Assembly: GCA_029194665.1 (NCBI GenBank)
Contig: JARFXO010000001.1
Span: 248,001-312,000 of the forward strand
Direction: 5' to 3'
Length of the DNA stretch: 64,000 nucleotides
DNA from: Nitrospira sp.
GTDB lineage: Bacteria; Nitrospirota; Nitrospiria; Nitrospirales; Nitrospiraceae
The position numbers were made by a program, and so were the translations under genes. Below the pieces are notes generated by a model, which saw nothing but the letters and a program-made list of their open reading frames with translations, had not been told where the DNA came from and did not search any database. Each line of letters opens with the position of its first letter. Positions within the stretch are counted from its first letter, which is position 1. Below are positions 34,508 through 40,715 of the stretch, one piece after another.

Positions 34508-34518
34508 CGATCATTAGT

Positions 34519-34712
34519 TAACCCTAATCCGAAAACGAAAACTCGTCTGTTGGTTTATTCCGCGGGTCCTGTCATGGCGAACAGCCCCACCGTGCTCACT
34601 CCACCCATCCCCCAGTGGGGCCCTTCCGTTGCGCGCGGTGGGGCGCCCCGTTCGCCACGTCACCCGCGGTGTTTATGCGATCTGTTGTCAAAATTATTTC
34701 GGATTACGGTTA
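34519..34712. repeat. 194-bp imperfect palindrome between mutS and mazEF
   Basis: TAACCCTAATCCGAAA (34519-34534) and TTTCGGATTACGGTTA (34697-34712) are outer inverted arms with one mismatch. Inside lie further matching pairs: CCGCGGGT against ACCCGCGG, GGCGAAC against GTTCGCC, and CCCCACCG against CGGTGGGG. The whole unit could fold into a long hairpin. It has no open frame and looks like a small non-autonomous mobile or REPIN-like repeat. Confidence 0.65.
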
Positions 34713-34745
34713 GTTCCAGCCACTCGATCGCCGCAATCAGTTGTC

Positions 34746-34778
34746 TTGCCAGAAAAATACATCCTGTATACAATACAG
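34746..34778 (+). promoter_or_regulatory. mazEF promoter with operator palindrome over the -10
   Basis: TTGCCA (34746-34751) and TACAAT (34769-34774) are a near-consensus sigma-70 promoter with a 17-base spacer. CTGTAT-ACA-ATACAG (34764-34778) is a perfect 6-base inverted repeat over the -10. This is the usual placement of an operator for autoregulation by an antitoxin or toxin-antitoxin complex. Confidence 0.6.
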
Positions 34779-34802
34779 CATTCATGTCTTGGTGGAGGAA
34801 CA

Positions 34803-35030
34803 ATGGCCGTCAGATTGAACATCACGATGGATGAGGATATTTACACAAGACTCAAGCAGGAAGTGCCTCCGAAGAAGATCAGCGCGTTCATCTCCTCCGC
34901 TGTTCGGGCGAAACTTCATCCGGACAAGAAGACCCTCGATGAAGCCTACCGTGCCGCCCGGAAAGAACGTTGGCGGAAAGAACTGGAGCATGACTGGAAG
35001 AGCACGGAGGGCGAAGGGTGGCCAAACTGA
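34803..35030 (+). CDS. MazE-type antitoxin (ribbon-helix-helix)
   Basis: ATG 34803 follows GGAGGAAC. The 75-residue product starts MAVRLNITMDEDIYTRLKQE, a ribbon-helix-helix DNA-binding pattern, then SAFISSAVRAKL. The charged C-terminus (KERWRKELEHDWKSTEGEGW) would wrap and neutralise the toxin. The upstream frame from 34629 is non-coding. It overlaps mazF by 13 bases and should repress its own promoter through the palindrome at 34764-34778. Confidence 0.85.
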   Translation: MAVRLNITMDEDIYTRLKQEVPPKKISAFISSAVRAKLHPDKKTLDEAYRAARKERWRKELEHDWKSTEGEGWPN

Positions 35031-35365
35031 GGAAGCTACCCCGTCGAGGAGATGTCTACTGGGTTGCGCTGGATCCGACGGTTGGGTCAGAGATCAAGAA
35101 GACCAGACCAGCGGTGATCGTTTCTAACGATTCCTGCAACACCTTCGGCTCTCGCGTGGTTGTCCTGCCGCTTACCAGCAATGTCGATTCCTTGTATCCC
35201 GGTGAAGCCATGGTCGTCGTCAACGGCAAGTCGGCTCGTGTGTTGGGCGATCAGATCCGATCGTTGGATAAATCACGAGTGCAATCGAAAATCGACACAT
35301 TGAGCCAAGAAGAGCTGGCCGCCGTCGAAGAGGCGATCCGCATCACGCTCGCCTTGCAGCCTTGA
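35018..35365 (+). CDS. mazF: MazF/PemK-type endoribonuclease toxin
   Basis: The 115-residue product has the MazF marks RRGDVYWVALDPTVGSEIKK, TRPAVIVSND, VVVLPLTSN and ARVLGDQIRSLDKSR. It cuts mRNA at short sequences unless bound by the antitoxin. The start is GTG at 35018 inside the end of the antitoxin gene; coupling keeps the toxin at or below antitoxin level. The final codons overlap, on the opposite strand, the avd-like fragment ORF. Confidence 0.92.
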   Translation: MAKLRKLPRRGDVYWVALDPTVGSEIKKTRPAVIVSNDSCNTFGSRVVVLPLTSNVDSLYPGEAMVVVNGKSARVLGDQIRSLDKSRVQSKIDTLSQEELAAVEEAIRITLALQP

Positions 35366-35519
35366 ACGGCGAGGGCTTTTCCCAAAAACCTCCACGACCG
35401 TATTTCGAGGCGCTCGCCCAAGGTGAAGCGGCGCGAGCGCGGAATTTATCGAGCTGCGGAATCAGCCACAGCAACAGCTCGTGGCACGATTGCACAGGCT
35501 GGGGGACCGTTGGAGGCAT
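35343..35519 (-). pseudogene. 5' fragment 1 of an avd-like (DGR accessory, four-helix bundle) gene
   Basis: On the minus strand, ATG 35519 gives MPPTVPQPVQSCHELLLWLI, then PQLDKF. After that a one-base loss shifts the frame. In the next frame the codons still read RSRRFTLGERLE, so the unshifted protein would continue DKFPRSRRFTLGERLE. This W-x(n)-KFPR-x-x-RFTLG pattern is the signature of Avd and related four-helix bundle proteins of diversity-generating retroelements. Homology ends about 35390. The first helix only remains. Confidence 0.55.
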
Positions 35520-35525
35520 CGCTCA

Positions 35526-35690
35526 ACCCCACGCTGGCAGGGCTTAGGCTTGGTTCAAGGTCGGCTGATGGTCGTAGCCTATACAAGGCGAGGTTCGGAC
35601 AGGATCCGAATCATCTCATTAAGGAAGGCAAATCGTCGTGAAAAAGTCCTCTTCCAAGAAACGCTCAAAGACCAACTGGGAAAAAATTGA
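35526..35690 (+). pseudogene. brnT: 3' fragment of a BrnT-type toxin
   Basis: The codons read GLGLVQGRLMVVAYTRRGSD, then RIRIISLRKANRREKVLFQE. This is the C-terminal half of BrnT toxins (GRLLVVVYTERG...RIISARKA..RER). The N-terminal half, including the start, is replaced by unrelated sequence that contains the avd-like fragment on the other strand. The 3' end still overlaps the brnA start, as in intact brnTA operons. Confidence 0.7.
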
Positions 35691-35904
35691 CGCGATGTCC
35701 GACCATGACATCGACTACTCTGATATTCCCGAACTCGGGAAAGCGTTTTTCAAGCATGCAACCCTTGTCCTGCCCGAGCCGAAAGCCACCGTGACCATGC
35801 GCGTGGATCGGAAAGTATTGGATTGGTTCAAAGCGCAGGGACGTGGCTACCAAACTCGCATCAACGCGCTGCTCCGAGCCTATATGGAAGCGCATAAGAC
35901 GTGA
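35638..35904 (+). CDS. brnA: BrnA-family antitoxin (DUF4415)
   Basis: The 88-residue product ends in the BrnA ribbon-helix-helix domain (PKATVTMRVDRKVLDWFKAQ, then GRGYQTRINALLRAYME). The N-terminus is charged (MKKSSSKKRSKTNWEKIDAM). It starts at GTG 35638 after AAGGAAGG. BrnA represses its own operon and neutralises BrnT; here its toxin is truncated, so it is an orphan antitoxin and may act in trans. The stop abuts the second avd-like fragment. Confidence 0.85.
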   Translation: MKKSSSKKRSKTNWEKIDAMSDHDIDYSDIPELGKAFFKHATLVLPEPKATVTMRVDRKVLDWFKAQGRGYQTRINALLRAYMEAHKT

Positions 35905-35995
35905 TGGGCTCGGGAAACTTGTCGATCTGCGGAATCAGCCACAGCAGCAGCTCATGACACGATTGCACCGCCTGGGGCACGGTGGAAGCAGACAT
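35861..35995 (-). pseudogene. 5' fragment 2 of an avd-like gene, directly downstream of the DGR-type target
   Basis: On the minus strand ATG 35995 follows AAGAGGGTG and gives MSASTVPQAVQSCHELLLWL, then IPQIDKFP. The reading then runs into brnA-strand sequence (EPITSYALPYRLGAAR) and stops. It is about 80 percent identical to the fragment at 35450-35519 over some 80 bases. Its place about 110 bases after the stop of the ATPase-FGE gene, on the same strand, is where avd normally lies in a DGR. Confidence 0.55.
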
Positions 35996-36106
35996 CGGCA
36001 CCCTCTTATCTATTCCAGTTGCGCTCGACTAAGCCTATGGCCCTTTCGGACATGAGTGTCACGGAGAATAGGGAGAGCAAAGGGTCAAAGAACAAAGCGC
36101 AAAGGG

Positions 36107-38065
36107 TTAGGGCTCAAGGTCCTGGGCAAGACGGAAGCCAATGCTGTTGCTCCGGCCGCCGGCATTGTCCCTGCTCCGGTTCGACGCACGCAGGCTCTCC
36201 GGTTCGTTGCCCCAGGAACCGCCACGGATCACGCGCCGGCCGCAGTCGCCGCCATTCGTCCCTAACCGGGCCGATCCATCAGTCGGTGCGTTCTTGTAAG
36301 AGTTGTGCCAGCAATCTTCCACCCATTCCCATACATTCCCGCTCATGTCATAGAGCCCCAGCGCGTTGGGCTTCTTGGTACCGACTGGCTCTGTTTTCGC
36401 TGCGTTATACACTGCATAATCAGGTAACTGCGTCTCCTCGGAGGTTCCTGCCCAAATATGGTCCTCCTTCTTGGCGATGCTACGAGCTGCATATTCCCAT
36501 TCCGATTCCGTCGGCAGGCGGTACCGTTTGCCGGTTTGCTTGGACAACCAGTCCGCATAGTCCTTCGCGTCCAGCCACGACACACTGATCACCGGCCGCC
36601 GGCCACGGCCCCAATATTCATCATGGGGCACCGGCCGCTTGGCGGTCAAGGCGAACCGCTTGTATTCGTCAAACGTGACCTCAGATTTCCCCATCGCAAA
36701 CGGTTTGACTGTCACCTTGTGGACTGGTTGCTCGTCGTTCCTGCCTCGTCCATGCGTGTCACCCTGTTCAACTGTGCCGCCGGGAACAGTTTCCATCTGC
36801 GGGGTCATATGGATGCTCATGAACGTTGATTGCGCCATCAGTATCCCACCTTCGACCGTCAAGGCTTCCTTCCACAACCAGGCGCCGATGGCACCCGCCA
36901 GAAGGATCAACAACCCTGCAACCAATAGGCTCACTTGGGCAATGCGTTTTGCCCTATGAGCTTCCTTTGCTTGAATATCCGCGGCCCTGCTGCTTTCGGC
37001 TGCTTGAGTCTTGGCCTCCGCAATCTTCGCCACGCTTGCTGCTTGCGGCGGTTCACTCCAAGGATTGTCGCCATTGATCGCCCTTTCGCACAACGACTGG
37101 TAGCTGCGCGTAATCGATAGAGCATCTCCACTGCGCTCGACCAAGGCACCAATTTCTTCCCCATATGCGTAGGCAGGTACATGCGGTACCTGGATTTCGT
37201 CGAAATACCCGGATAGATCACATTGCGATAGGTGGTACACCTCTTTAAATAGCTTCTCAAAAAGCGGCTGGTAACCCTCGATGCCGGCCCGAAGATCGCC
37301 GAAGCGCCATGCATCACGACGCCTCGGCTCCGAGATGTCAATCCTGGAAGGAAGTGGAAACACTAGCAGGGGTCTTAGATCATCAGACTGGCGTCGGTAG
37401 CGGGTCGCCCTTCTCACCTGATCAATGACTCCGGTCAGACTTTGTCGGTTAGGCGTAAAGACCACAACCAGTTTCTCCGGCATGAGCGTGGTACAGATGC
37501 CGCTGATGTCGGTGAGGCCGGTGCGGGAGTCAATCAAGACATACCGGTAGCGCCCCGCCAGGTGCTCGGCAAAGAGTTGGATTAGCAGGGGCGATCGGTT
37601 AAAGATGTTTTCCCAATCGAACGTGTTGACCCGCGTTGAATATTCGGGATCGAAGCGACCGGCCCTCATCAGGCTCAAGTACGGAATGCTAGTATGAACC
37701 ACATAGTCATCGAGCTGAACGCCCTTCAGGCAACGAATTGCTCTCTCGGTCGCCTCTTCGTCAGTCTCCGGCGGCCCATCGGGAGTTTGCTGATCAAACG
37801 TCATAAAGAGATCAATCAGGCCAGGCAATTCGTCAAACGGACGCCTGATGTTCTTCGACTCCGCCACCTCTTCGGAGAATCTGCCCTGAAAGAAGCGGTG
37901 CAGTCCTGGAGCCTCCAAGTCCCAATCGACCATCAGGATGCCCTTGCCCTGTGTTTGTTGGGAAGCCAACAAGCACGCAACATTAGCAAGAGCCATGGAC
38001 CGACCGGTGCCGCCCTTATAAGAGTAAAACGTGATGATCTCGCCTGAGCCGTCTTTCTTGCTCAT
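36107..38065 (-). CDS. KGG-type ATPase fused to an FGE/C-type-lectin domain, candidate DGR target protein
   Basis: The protein has 652 residues. Residues 1-330 are a MinD/ParA-like ATPase with a variant P-loop, SYKGGTGRSMALANVA (Arg where Lys is usual), then MVDWDLEAPGLHRF and YVLIDSRTGLTDISGI. One membrane segment follows at about 380-400 (SLLVAGLLILLAGAIGAWLW). The C-terminal 240 residues are a formylglycine-generating-enzyme-like domain (MVPGG-type start, RLPTESEWEYAAR, LGLYDMSGNVWEWVEDCW, RVIRGGSWGN), a C-type-lectin fold that DGRs often diversify. It overlaps the TIR gene (ATGA), so both are coupled. The likely job is recognition by the lectin-like part and signalling through the ATPase and TIR; this is inferred. 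Confidence 0.85.
   Translation of the reverse strand: MSKKDGSGEIITFYSYKGGTGRSMALANVACLLASQQTQGKGILMVDWDLEAPGLHRFFQGRFSEEVAESKNIRRPFDELPGLIDLFMTFDQQTPDGPPETDEEATERAIRCLKGVQLDDYVVHTSIPYLSLMRAGRFDPEYSTRVNTFDWENIFNRSPLLIQLFAEHLAGRYRYVLIDSRTGLTDISGICTTLMPEKLVVVFTPNRQSLTGVIDQVRRATRYRRQSDDLRPLLVFPLPSRIDISEPRRRDAWRFGDLRAGIEGYQPLFEKLFKEVYHLSQCDLSGYFDEIQVPHVPAYAYGEEIGALVERSGDALSITRSYQSLCERAINGDNPWSEPPQAASVAKIAEAKTQAAESSRAADIQAKEAHRAKRIAQVSLLVAGLLILLAGAIGAWLWKEALTVEGGILMAQSTFMSIHMTPQMETVPGGTVEQGDTHGRGRNDEQPVHKVTVKPFAMGKSEVTFDEYKRFALTAKRPVPHDEYWGRGRRPVISVSWLDAKDYADWLSKQTGKRYRLPTESEWEYAARSIAKKEDHIWAGTSEETQLPDYAVYNAAKTEPVGTKKPNALGLYDMSGNVWEWVEDCWHNSYKNAPTDGSARLGTNGGDCGRRVIRGGSWGNEPESLRASNRSRDNAGGRSNSIGFRLAQDLEP
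36125..36226 (-). other. Candidate DGR variable region at the end of the FGE domain
   Basis: The codons encode RGGSWGNEPESLRASNRSRD, then NAGGRSNSIGFRLAQ. In DGR targets of this type the variable region begins at RGGSW and ends at GFRLA. Here the likely variable codons are AGC, GGC, GAC or AAC, as expected if a template rich in AAC had undergone mostly A-to-G changes. No second copy (template repeat) is visible in the window. Confidence 0.5.
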
Positions 38066-38697
38066 GACTGTGGCTCACGTCCTGGAAAGACAGCCCGAGG
38101 CCGTTGGGCAGGCGACCTCCACGTCGGGATCTCGTTTTCGGAAGGAAGGCGGAAATTGATGCAGTCGCTACACAGTTCAATACCCGATGCCTCAAATGAG
38201 GACACGTGTTCGTAAATAGCCTTGGCGATCTTCTCAATCTCCGTTATGTATTGTGGGTTCTTGCTGATGTCCGTGTCAGCAGTGGTGAACCGAGTGAAGT
38301 CACAATAGTGCCGATGCGCCTTAATCTCGTCTGGGAGTTTGGCTGGATCGCCTCTGAAAATGATCGGAATGATCATCCCGTGTGCCGGCGACCACGCACT
38401 GCCCAATTTGGCTCTGCGCTCTTGCTCAACCAGCCTCATGCCTTCAAACTCCCGTACACAGTAACTGTGCCGCTCATACCTCGGGGAGTACACGACGATC
38501 ATGCATACACTCTTGCAAATCACCGATGCCAACTCCTCGTTGTACTGGTAGCCCGGCTTTAAGCGGTCCTCGTCGATATAGACCTCCTCGTCCATGTACG
38601 GTTCGAGATAGCTCTTTAAGGCTTGCTTGAGCTGGCTGATAAAAGCCTTCGTTAAGTCGTGCTGTCCGTGACAGTAGCTGATGAAGCAGGCGTACAT
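38062..38697 (-). CDS. TIR-domain protein
   Basis: The 211-residue protein has no signal peptide. It begins MYACFISYCHGQHDLTKAFI, the TIR box 1 pattern (FISY), with IDEDRLKPGYQYNEEL and SVCMIVVYSPRYERHSYC as later TIR strands and YCVREFEGM near the catalytic Glu region. Bacterial TIR domains often break down NAD+ or make cyclic nucleotide signals in anti-phage defence; I cannot tell activity from sequence. The C-terminal 40 residues (CSDCINFRLPSENEIPTW) are outside the domain. GGAGGAAAG precedes the ATG; the stop overlaps the ATPase start. Confidence 0.85.
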   Translation of the reverse strand: MYACFISYCHGQHDLTKAFISQLKQALKSYLEPYMDEEVYIDEDRLKPGYQYNEELASVICKSVCMIVVYSPRYERHSYCVREFEGMRLVEQERRAKLGSAWSPAHGMIIPIIFRGDPAKLPDEIKAHRHYCDFTRFTTADTDISKNPQYITEIEKIAKAIYEHVSSFEASGIELCSDCINFRLPSENEIPTWRSPAQRPRAVFPGREPQS

Positions 38698-38716
38698 GGC
38701 TTTCCTCCGGTGAGAC

Positions 38717-38878
38717 TCACCTGTATTCGTTTAGACATTTATCCACCGGTCGCTGATCCGCCGCGATATACTCTTCCATCGCAGTGACCTGATGACCGGC
38801 CTTGCGCAGCGCCTCGTAGACCACAGTTCTGTAGTCTATGAGGTCATCGTAAGTTGAGGAGAGATAGATCGTAACCAT
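38717..38878 (-). CDS. DUF4062 domain stub
   Basis: ATG 38878 follows AGGAGACGACC. The 53-residue product reads MVTIYLSSTYDDLIDYRTVV, then YEALRKAGHQVTAMEEYIAA and DQRPVDKCLNEYR. This is the N-terminal half of DUF4062, a Rossmann-like domain often fused to STAND ATPases, TIR or CHAT domains in conflict proteins. The second half (usually starting DVAACDLYVGI) is missing and a stop follows. It may be a broken domain or a deliberate short form; it starts the operon 20 bases ahead of the TIR gene. Confidence 0.6.
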   Translation of the reverse strand: MVTIYLSSTYDDLIDYRTVVYEALRKAGHQVTAMEEYIAADQRPVDKCLNEYR

Positions 38879-39031
38879 TGGTCGTCTCCTCAACCACAGC
38901 AATGCCAATGCCTGCCATGCAAAAACCGGAACACAGGAGCGCGACTCACGCAAAGTCGATGGCCACAGAGTGAACGGAGATGGATTGATGATGTGGAGAC
39001 AACGGCGATGGGAAGGGTGATCGCCATAATT

Positions 39032-39071
39032 GGTATCAGATCAGATACAGAAATGTATCCGTAGAGATACC
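39032..39071 (-). promoter_or_regulatory. Clustered GTATC/GATAC inverted repeats upstream of the TIR operon
   Basis: GGTATC (39032), GATAC (39044), GTATCC (39055) and GATACC (39066) form interlocked inverted repeats about 160 bases upstream of the DUF4062 start. They could be an operator or a small hairpin. No clear promoter boxes can be assigned. Confidence 0.25.
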
Positions 39072-39135
39072 ATAGGTAGGACATTCCATGCTAGTCTACG
39101 CACTGCATGACCACATGGCTTTCTGCGCAGGCTGG

Positions 39136-39196: not shown

Positions 39197-39859
39197 TCAG
39201 TGCGGTCGATTATACTGAGCGGTCCATGGAACGAGACCGCCGAGAGTTTTCCCTCCCGGAAGCATCACATCGTACTGCATCCCGACGTTACTCCCATCGG
39301 GAGAAACCGGCGACGTGTTAAGATCTTGCTTGGCTGCTGCGCAAGGCTTATCGTATTCACTCTTCCCGACACAATCCTTGAGCCGAAGCGCGGACATGCT
39401 CACCGGCTTGCCCATTGAGCCGGACACCTCGGGAATCTTCTTCACCGATGAAATCACCCGATGATTCTGCTCAGTCTCTGTCACAACGAATTCGATCAAA
39501 TCCGTCGTACTGCCTGGGGGAACTTCTTTTGCTGCTGCCGGCCCGGCATGAGACCGGCCCATCTTCTTCAACTCTTGCCATGCGGACTTATCGGCATAGA
39601 ACTTCACATTTTTCCCCGGATGAACTTTTTGCCAGAACAAGCCGCTCTCGGCATTCCCGCCGAATACGGCGATGTTGATCCACACTGCTTCATCGTAGGG
39701 ATCAAGCACGATCACCCGACCTTGAAGCGTGGTCGGTTTGCTCATATCGCCCCACTCGAATCGCTCTTGAAATGATTCAATGGCCGAGGCAGTCGAACCC
39801 ATACCGACGACCAGCGCAACGGCTGCCAGAACGGCTGCACCTCGCTTCTGCAACATCAT
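39197..39859 (-). CDS. Exported protein, unknown function
   Basis: ATG 39859 follows AAGGAGGACGTGATC. The 220-residue product has a signal peptide (MMLQKRGAAVLAAVALVVGM, cleavage near ASA-IE). The mature part has a TTLQGRVIVLDPYDEAVWIN strand region, likely an OB or small beta domain, and two Cys in a pair-like setting (LKDCVGKSEYDKPC). I know no function. It shares the short TLQGRV motif and an exported layout with the gene just upstream, so they probably work together. Confidence 0.7.
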   Translation of the reverse strand: MMLQKRGAAVLAAVALVVGMGSTASAIESFQERFEWGDMSKPTTLQGRVIVLDPYDEAVWINIAVFGGNAESGLFWQKVHPGKNVKFYADKSAWQELKKMGRSHAGPAAAKEVPPGSTTDLIEFVVTETEQNHRVISSVKKIPEVSGSMGKPVSMSALRLKDCVGKSEYDKPCAAAKQDLNTSPVSPDGSNVGMQYDVMLPGGKTLGGLVPWTAQYNRPH

Positions 39860-39901
39860 GATCACGTCCTCCTTCAACAACATCTTCGACATTGAGAGTG
39901 G

Positions 39902-40414
39902 CTATTCCTTAATCACCTTGAAGCCGGTGATGGTTCTGCCGTCCAGCGTGACCTCCATGGCGACCAATTCTTGAGAGGCCTTGATGATTTGGTCCATCAG
40001 CGCCTTATCCTTGACCGCCAGACGGACCGTCGAGGCCGCATGGTACCAGCCTGAATAGGTTGAATTTTTCTCACTGCCACCGGTAAAACCCCAGGCACAA
40101 CAGCTGAACAACGGGTCAGGTGGCTTCACGTCGAAGGTCGTTGATGATCGGCCCGCAGGCGTGCCCGATCCCGGCTCTCCAGTATTCCAATATTGAATCC
40201 CGAACAGGAGTTCTCCATCCGGGTTATCCGCCCACTGCGACCAGACACGACCTTGCAGCGTCTTGGCCGCGGCTTCAGCCTTCAGCGGTTTTCCTCCAAC
40301 CACTGCGTCGGCGAGGCCTAAGTGCTCTATGTCGGCAGCTAGGGAGACCCCGGTCGCTAGCAAGCCGAACCCCGAAAACACCGTCACGGCAGCTAGAATG
40401 ACAGCCCTTTTCAT
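39902..40414 (-). CDS. Exported protein, unknown function
   Basis: ATG 40414 follows AAGGAGGGAAACGT, better than the first ATG at 40435. The signal peptide is MKRAVILAAVTVFSGFGLLA with cleavage near SLA-AD. The 170-residue protein has the motif KTLQGRVWSQWADNPDGELL, then PLFSCCAWGFTGG with adjacent Cys, and a C-terminal helix and strand (LMDQIIKASQELVAMEVTLD). It is 43 bases upstream of the other exported protein on the same strand. Confidence 0.7.
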   Translation of the reverse strand: MKRAVILAAVTVFSGFGLLATGVSLAADIEHLGLADAVVGGKPLKAEAAAKTLQGRVWSQWADNPDGELLFGIQYWNTGEPGSGTPAGRSSTTFDVKPPDPLFSCCAWGFTGGSEKNSTYSGWYHAASTVRLAVKDKALMDQIIKASQELVAMEVTLDGRTITGFKVIKE

Positions 40415-40715
40415 ACGTTTCCCTCCTTGCATCAAATTTGAGCCCGATAGTCTGAGACGTTATCCGTCCTCGATTCTGAAGTCGCTCAATCAAAGATTTT
40501 GCAAAGCTTTTGGGGAATTCACGTTCTCCACTAGCCTCCACCCAAACAGAAACGGGAAGCTGTCCAACCGGCACGGGAACGGTACTGAAACGGCGATGTC
40601 CTGTCAAGGACATGTTCGATGGATTCTAATGTAAAGAAATTCGCGTCACGATGTCAATGAATATGAATCCGTCGTGAAATGCCCATGAAACGGAGCCTAT
40701 GGGCATCAAAGACGG

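Follow-up and report, generated by a model that had tools for sequence, protein, structure and literature searches.

A variable region that has probably outlived its DGR in a TIR and ATPase-FGE operon of Nitrospira

Can a gene be recognised as the product of a diversity-generating retroelement (DGR) when its own genome holds no template to compare it with? The question is raised by a 64,000-nucleotide stretch of Nitrospira sp. DNA (the window; G000:C1:248001-312000, from a source genome of 4.8 Mb in 17 contigs), in which residues 614-647 of a predicted FGE-domain protein (minus strand 36226..36125, RGGSW GNEPESLRASNRSRDNAGGRSNSI GFRLA) form the C-terminus of the FGE domain. A sequence-only reading had proposed that the codons of this stretch fit adenine-specific mutagenesis and that their framework is that of other DGR targets. 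The codons that it named at the surface (AGC, GGC, GAC, GAG and AAC) and in the framework (TGG, CGG, ATT and GGC-TTC-CGT) are all present in 36125-36226, and the framework is indeed shared with other DGR targets in the genus. The variable region (VR) itself proved somewhat longer than the interval proposed, running from 36122 to 36242. The features of the locus are collected in Table 1.

Table 1. Features of the target operon, its variable region and the surrounding island, and parts of the intact DGR on contig C10
Feature	Position	Strand	Basis or remark
DGR variable region (VR), lineage II	36122..36242	-	Template comparison
VR differences at template A (template G058:C100)	36237, 36211, 36210, 36205, 36195, 36182, 36174, 36169, 36159, 36157, 36156, 36150, 36144
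VR differences at non-A (template G058:C100)	36164, 36128, 36126
Target gene, 652 aa	36107..38065	-	ORF and Pfam
KGGVGR AAA ATPase domain of target gene	about 37424-38041 (residues 9-214)	-
Single hydrophobic helix of target protein	36887-36943 (residues 375-393)	-
FGE-sulfatase domain of target protein	36125-36805 (residues 421-647)	-	Pfam, E = 1.2e-55
TIR-domain gene, 211 aa	38062..38697	-	Pfam
avd-II remnant A	35909..36004	-	First Avd codons, cut at about codon 28; tblastn E about 1e-12
avd-II remnant B	35388..35531	-	About 42 codons, frameshifted
BrnA-type antitoxin gene, between the two avd remnants	35638..35904	+	PF14384, E = 6e-17
PemK/MazF-type toxin gene, head-on to remnant B	35018..35365	+	PF02452, E = 7e-27
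Small partner gene of the PemK/MazF-type toxin gene	34803-35030
Island holding target operon, avd remnants and toxin/antitoxin genes	34508..39130, ends approximate		About 4.6 kb
Avd of the C10 DGR			NCBIfam NF033474, over cut-off
RT of the C10 DGR			GIPIGNQTSQ motif
Template of the C10 DGR	C10:1584-1697

The variable region and the lineage-II templates

With the VR stretch as a DNA query, we searched 79 genomes of the genus. The search found matches immediately behind DGR RTs sharing about 52% identity with the RT of the intact DGR on contig C10 of the source genome (lineage I); these are seven AAC-rich templates, termed lineage II, in six genomes (G058 twice, G066, G012, G013, G037 and G021). 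The closest of these, on contig C100 of G058, comes from another species. Over 121 nt the VR differs from it at 16 positions, 13 of them at A, two at C and one at T, so that 13/33 adenines differ as compared with 3/88 other sites (p = 1.8e-6). The remaining six templates show the same bias (p = 8.6e-5 to 7e-4), and the proposed fit to adenine-specific mutagenesis is therefore upheld by all seven. Two of the three non-A differences, at 36128 and 36126, match the state of the sister template in G066, which leaves a single unexplained non-A change, C to T at 36164; the A-site difference at 36182, a third codon position, is likewise the state found in four other templates. At the codon level, the VR departs from the template by changes of AAC to GGC, AGC or GAC, of AAA to GAA and of GAC to GGC. 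Differences concentrated at template adenines and a position at the C-terminus of a CLec/FGE-type domain, the two features expected of a DGR target, are both found here and, judged on its sequence, the stretch is a genuine DGR variable region, lying in a TIR and ATPase-TM-FGE operon.

The spectrum of these changes is less easily generalised. The sequence-only reading had expected most differences to run from A to G, and in the VR core all 12 of the 12 A-site changes do so. Across 28 other VRs, only 42% of A-site changes are to G, with 38% to T and 20% to C, and the expectation fails as a general rule. The all-G core appears unusual rather than typical (beta-binomial P about 0.001, or about 0.03 allowing for 29 VRs), a result that we regard as suggestive only; nor is the A-to-N spectrum uniform among the other VRs (chi-square p = 0.002).

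Two further loci present VRs of distinct appearance. On contig C100 of G058 (L046, minus strand, 2-1126), a lineage-II cassette that is complete in other respects adjoins an FGE target whose VR end is frameshifted, and on contig C54 of G056 (L054:1523-1627) an FGE gene carries a VR that is almost pure template, with its AAC codons kept, as in an unmutated or recently reset target.

Lineage-II machinery and its remnants

The only intact DGR found in the source genome is of lineage I and lies at the start of contig C10 (L011:96-1697). Four FGE genes elsewhere in the genome differ from its template mainly at adenines: those at C5:230k (A 15/30, non-A 1/75), C7:290k (A 20/30, non-A 3/75), C1:703k (A 19/30, non-A 7/75) and C1:697k (A 16/30, non-A 9/75), with weaker targets at C1:701k and C3:389k. 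This DGR appears to serve, in trans, four to six FGE genes scattered over the genome, caspase-FGE and trypsin-FGE genes included. Contig C10 begins immediately ahead of avd, and the C7 target gene stops close to the end of its contig, so C7 and C10 may be joined at this point. A lineage-I template-like copy was also observed in another genome (G077:C19, L110:1503-1607), in which a DGR RT was not found.

No lineage-II RT was found in the source assembly, which comprises 17 contigs and is 99.5% complete; its RTs are the lineage-I enzyme, 52% identical, and a second RT on contig C3 that was rejected as a DGR RT, being a group II intron maturase above the NCBIfam cut-off. Searches of the assembly with VR and template DNA, up to E = 10, returned no lineage-II template, their matches being FGE genes and the lineage-I template only. 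With neither lineage-II RT nor template in the assembly, the VR is an orphan there. The accessory gene avd of lineage II was likewise not found intact in the assembly, which has two truncated copies in the window and a third stub behind the lineage-II FGE gene at C6:25k.

In intact lineage-II cassettes the FGE target is followed by avd, RT and template, and remnant A preserves the beginning of this order. It is collinear with intact FGE-avd cassettes (blastn, 36691-35913 to L041 and 36708-35913 to L047), the match running from the window gene through the spacer into avd and ending at about codon 28. Remnants A and B share a 78-nt direct repeat (82%). The sequence-only reading had reported one copy in the window, which is correct for the VR, but had missed these remnants, about 100-740 nt downstream of it. 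Truncated avd-II genes retaining the first 28-47 codons were observed behind VR genes with no RT nearby at six further loci (L052, L067, L081, L088, L015 and L066) as well as in the window (35388-36004); these stubs lie mostly 93-125 nt behind the VR, and their break points vary slightly by locus.

We consider it very probable that the VR was written by a lineage-II DGR whose machinery is now lost. A lineage-II RT would have copied an AAC-rich template into cDNA, misreading template adenines, and the mutated cDNA would have overwritten the end of the FGE gene. The rest of avd, the RT and the template would then have been deleted or left behind, with avd stubs remaining, and the orphaned VR would have been frozen in its last state.

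Alternative origins of the variable region

The same stretch could in principle belong to an ordinary FGE paralogue with drifted surface codons, resembling the templates by common descent and owing nothing to any DGR. FGE genes that are not targets likewise show more variation at template-A sites, which are surface positions (L020, p = 7e-5), and for this reason the p-value of the A bias is on its own a weak test; moreover, the window changes, all A to G, are what GC-biased drift could give. The number of non-A differences does separate targets from non-targets and was used as the criterion: non-target FGE genes differ at 24-31 of about 75 non-A sites, as compared with 3/74 in the window VR and 0/74 in control VRs beside intact lineage-II cassettes (G012 and G058:C47), which differ at 20-21 of 31 adenines. 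Furthermore, when the window gene is compared with its lineage-II relatives, identity lies mostly at 0.84-0.96 for the non-A sites of the VR, at 0.52-0.70 for the 600 nt before it and at 0.26-0.65 for the A sites of the VR. A framework conserved far above its own gene, template adenines excepted, bears the mark of mutagenic homing and not of ordinary descent, and the start of avd trails the gene as it does in intact cassettes. Comparisons of one VR with another gave no clean A bias, as expected because both copies have been rewritten. We hold an origin without a DGR to be very improbable, and authorship by the intact C10 DGR, for all its FGE targets elsewhere in the genome, is almost certainly wrong. 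The window stretch aligns without gaps to the C10 template, yet differs from it at 24/75 non-A sites, where clear lineage-I VRs differ at one to nine, and its adenines are not favoured (13/30, p = 0.19; for the 121-nt VR, A 15/33 versus non-A 33/88, p = 0.28). Differences spread in this way across all four bases led us to reject the C10 DGR as the author of the VR, and the near-identical non-coding copy that the sequence-only reading had proposed to look for was not found in the assembly.

A live but remote origin is harder to set aside, since a lineage-II cassette situated in an assembly gap, or carried by part of the population, might still rewrite the VR in trans. DGR repeats break assemblies, and in this one of 17 contigs the intact DGR lies at a contig end and a lineage-I VR gene stops 131 nt short of a second such end, so that a gap could conceal a lineage-II cassette. 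Trans activity, and intact and degraded variants side by side, have been reported in Thiohalocapsa (PMC10907252), and the single unexplained non-A difference indicates that the last rewriting of the VR is not old. Against these points stand the lack of any trace of lineage-II RT or template in an assembly of such completeness, an adjacent avd that is broken twice and the further stub behind another lineage-II FGE gene, and we judge a live remote cassette to be unlikely. Continuing diversification of the VR is not supported. The sequence-only reading had named the lack of any template as a refuting condition and, by that measure, the stretch is not demonstrable as a live target. Loss of the lineage-II machinery after the last rewriting hence stays our preferred account.

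The operon, its island and related systems

The TIR gene and the start of the target gene overlap by 4 nt. HRAKR lies on the N-side of the single helix of the target protein. The positive-inside rule would place the FGE domain outside the membrane. With its FGE domain outside and its ATPase inside, the target protein is most likely a membrane-bound sensor whose signal the TIR protein of the operon would receive. The FGE end seems to be a sensor that can be exchanged, with the TIR, caspase or protease part as the likely effector, a reading by analogy that draws on a TIR and KGGxGR-ATPase gene pair in the archaeon Methanosarcina sp. Ant1 (L145:2341-5745), where TPR repeats replace FGE and the ATPase is 53% identical to that of the target gene, and on FGE domains elsewhere in the source genome that are fused to caspase, trypsin or TIR domains. 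The target protein is unlikely to be an active formylglycine-generating enzyme. Such enzymes have catalytic cysteines near the C-terminus, whereas residues 612-652 (the last 41, spanning the VR and beyond) contain no cysteine, the nearest lying in NGGDCGRR just before the VR. PADLOC matches of the ATPase and TIR genes (PDC-M28B and PDC-S66) were partial only and were set aside.

The island sits between mutS and the gene at 39197-39892. The site is empty in seven relatives, in which mutS is followed directly by homologues of 39197-39892 and 39902-40435, an M16 protease and PNPase. In four genomes, including that of the window (34803-35365), an avd stub has a PemK/MazF-type toxin gene as its neighbour; identity to the window toxin is 78% in G001 (L232:2804-3358), 53% in G015 (L234:1676-1960) and 40% in G036 (L233:2627-2773). 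One might speculate that DGR targets of the genus undergo an ordered, repeated retirement, in which RT and template are removed, the first 28-47 avd codons are kept and a PemK/MazF-type toxin gene often comes to lie beside the break (window, G001, G015 and G036), and that the stub or toxin could have a role at the frozen sensors, but we regard this generalisation as doubtful.

Orphaned DGR targets are already known from Treponema and Thiohalocapsa. In Treponema denticola SP32, a target differs from the DGR template of another strain at 21 positions, 19 of them at A, and was read as the left-over of a lost DGR (PMC4891356). The window VR similarly fits a foreign template with adenine-specific differences, but SP32 still has a complete DGR of another type, and its remote gene encodes a short variable protein (PMC4891356), whereas here the loss is marked by avd stubs and the VR belongs to an ATPase-TM-FGE protein partnered by a TIR protein. 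In Thiohalocapsa PB-PSB1, FGE/CLec targets are joined to NTPase, TIR or peptidase parts as putative antigen sensors, some loci lack the RT or template and several DGR classes share one genome (PMC10907252). The Nitrospira genome resembles it in its FGE targets with NTPase and TIR parts, its locus lacking RT and template and its several DGR classes. In PB-PSB1, however, MITE-like arrays replaced RTs, most of the degenerate loci are still variable in the population and a KGGVGR ATPase partner is not described (PMC10907252); in the Nitrospira assembly a lineage-II template is altogether missing, and the break is the site of toxin-antitoxin genes.

The target protein also matches TvpA of Treponema denticola (PDB 2y3c), itself a DGR variable protein, with E = 1.4e-21 and C-terminal ends aligned, suggesting a shared FGE-type CLec fold with the VR at the C-terminus and speaking for the sensor role; the solved chain of TvpA gives no sign of an ATPase or TIR partner in its polypeptide or operon. 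The variable residues of such proteins are solvent-exposed and form a putative binding site (PMC6328139). A DGR-linked FGE domain has been described in a survey of conflict systems (PMC7159879), and the locus resembles the VMAP/MoxR ternary systems presented there in combining an NTPase, a TIR-like effector and such an FGE domain. Those systems are defined by a MoxR ATPase, a vWA protein and a VMAP protein, and in the two genes of the operon Pfam detected only TIR, ParA/AAA_31-like and FGE domains and none of the MoxR, vWA or VMAP type. A literature search, most subscription journals being outside its scope, found neither the KGGVGR ATPase nor these Nitrospira loci described in any paper.

Together, these results indicate that a VR can be recognised as DGR-written through the templates of relatives even when its own genome has none, and that surveys demanding RT, template and VR in one genome will miss orphan VR genes. 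They also extend the proposed antigen-sensor targets of DGRs by a membrane arrangement of TIR and ATPase-TM-FGE. The presence of several VR genes with avd stubs in a single genus provides a natural set of what would be retired sensors beside live ones, in which the cost of diversification and fixed receptor states may be studied directly.
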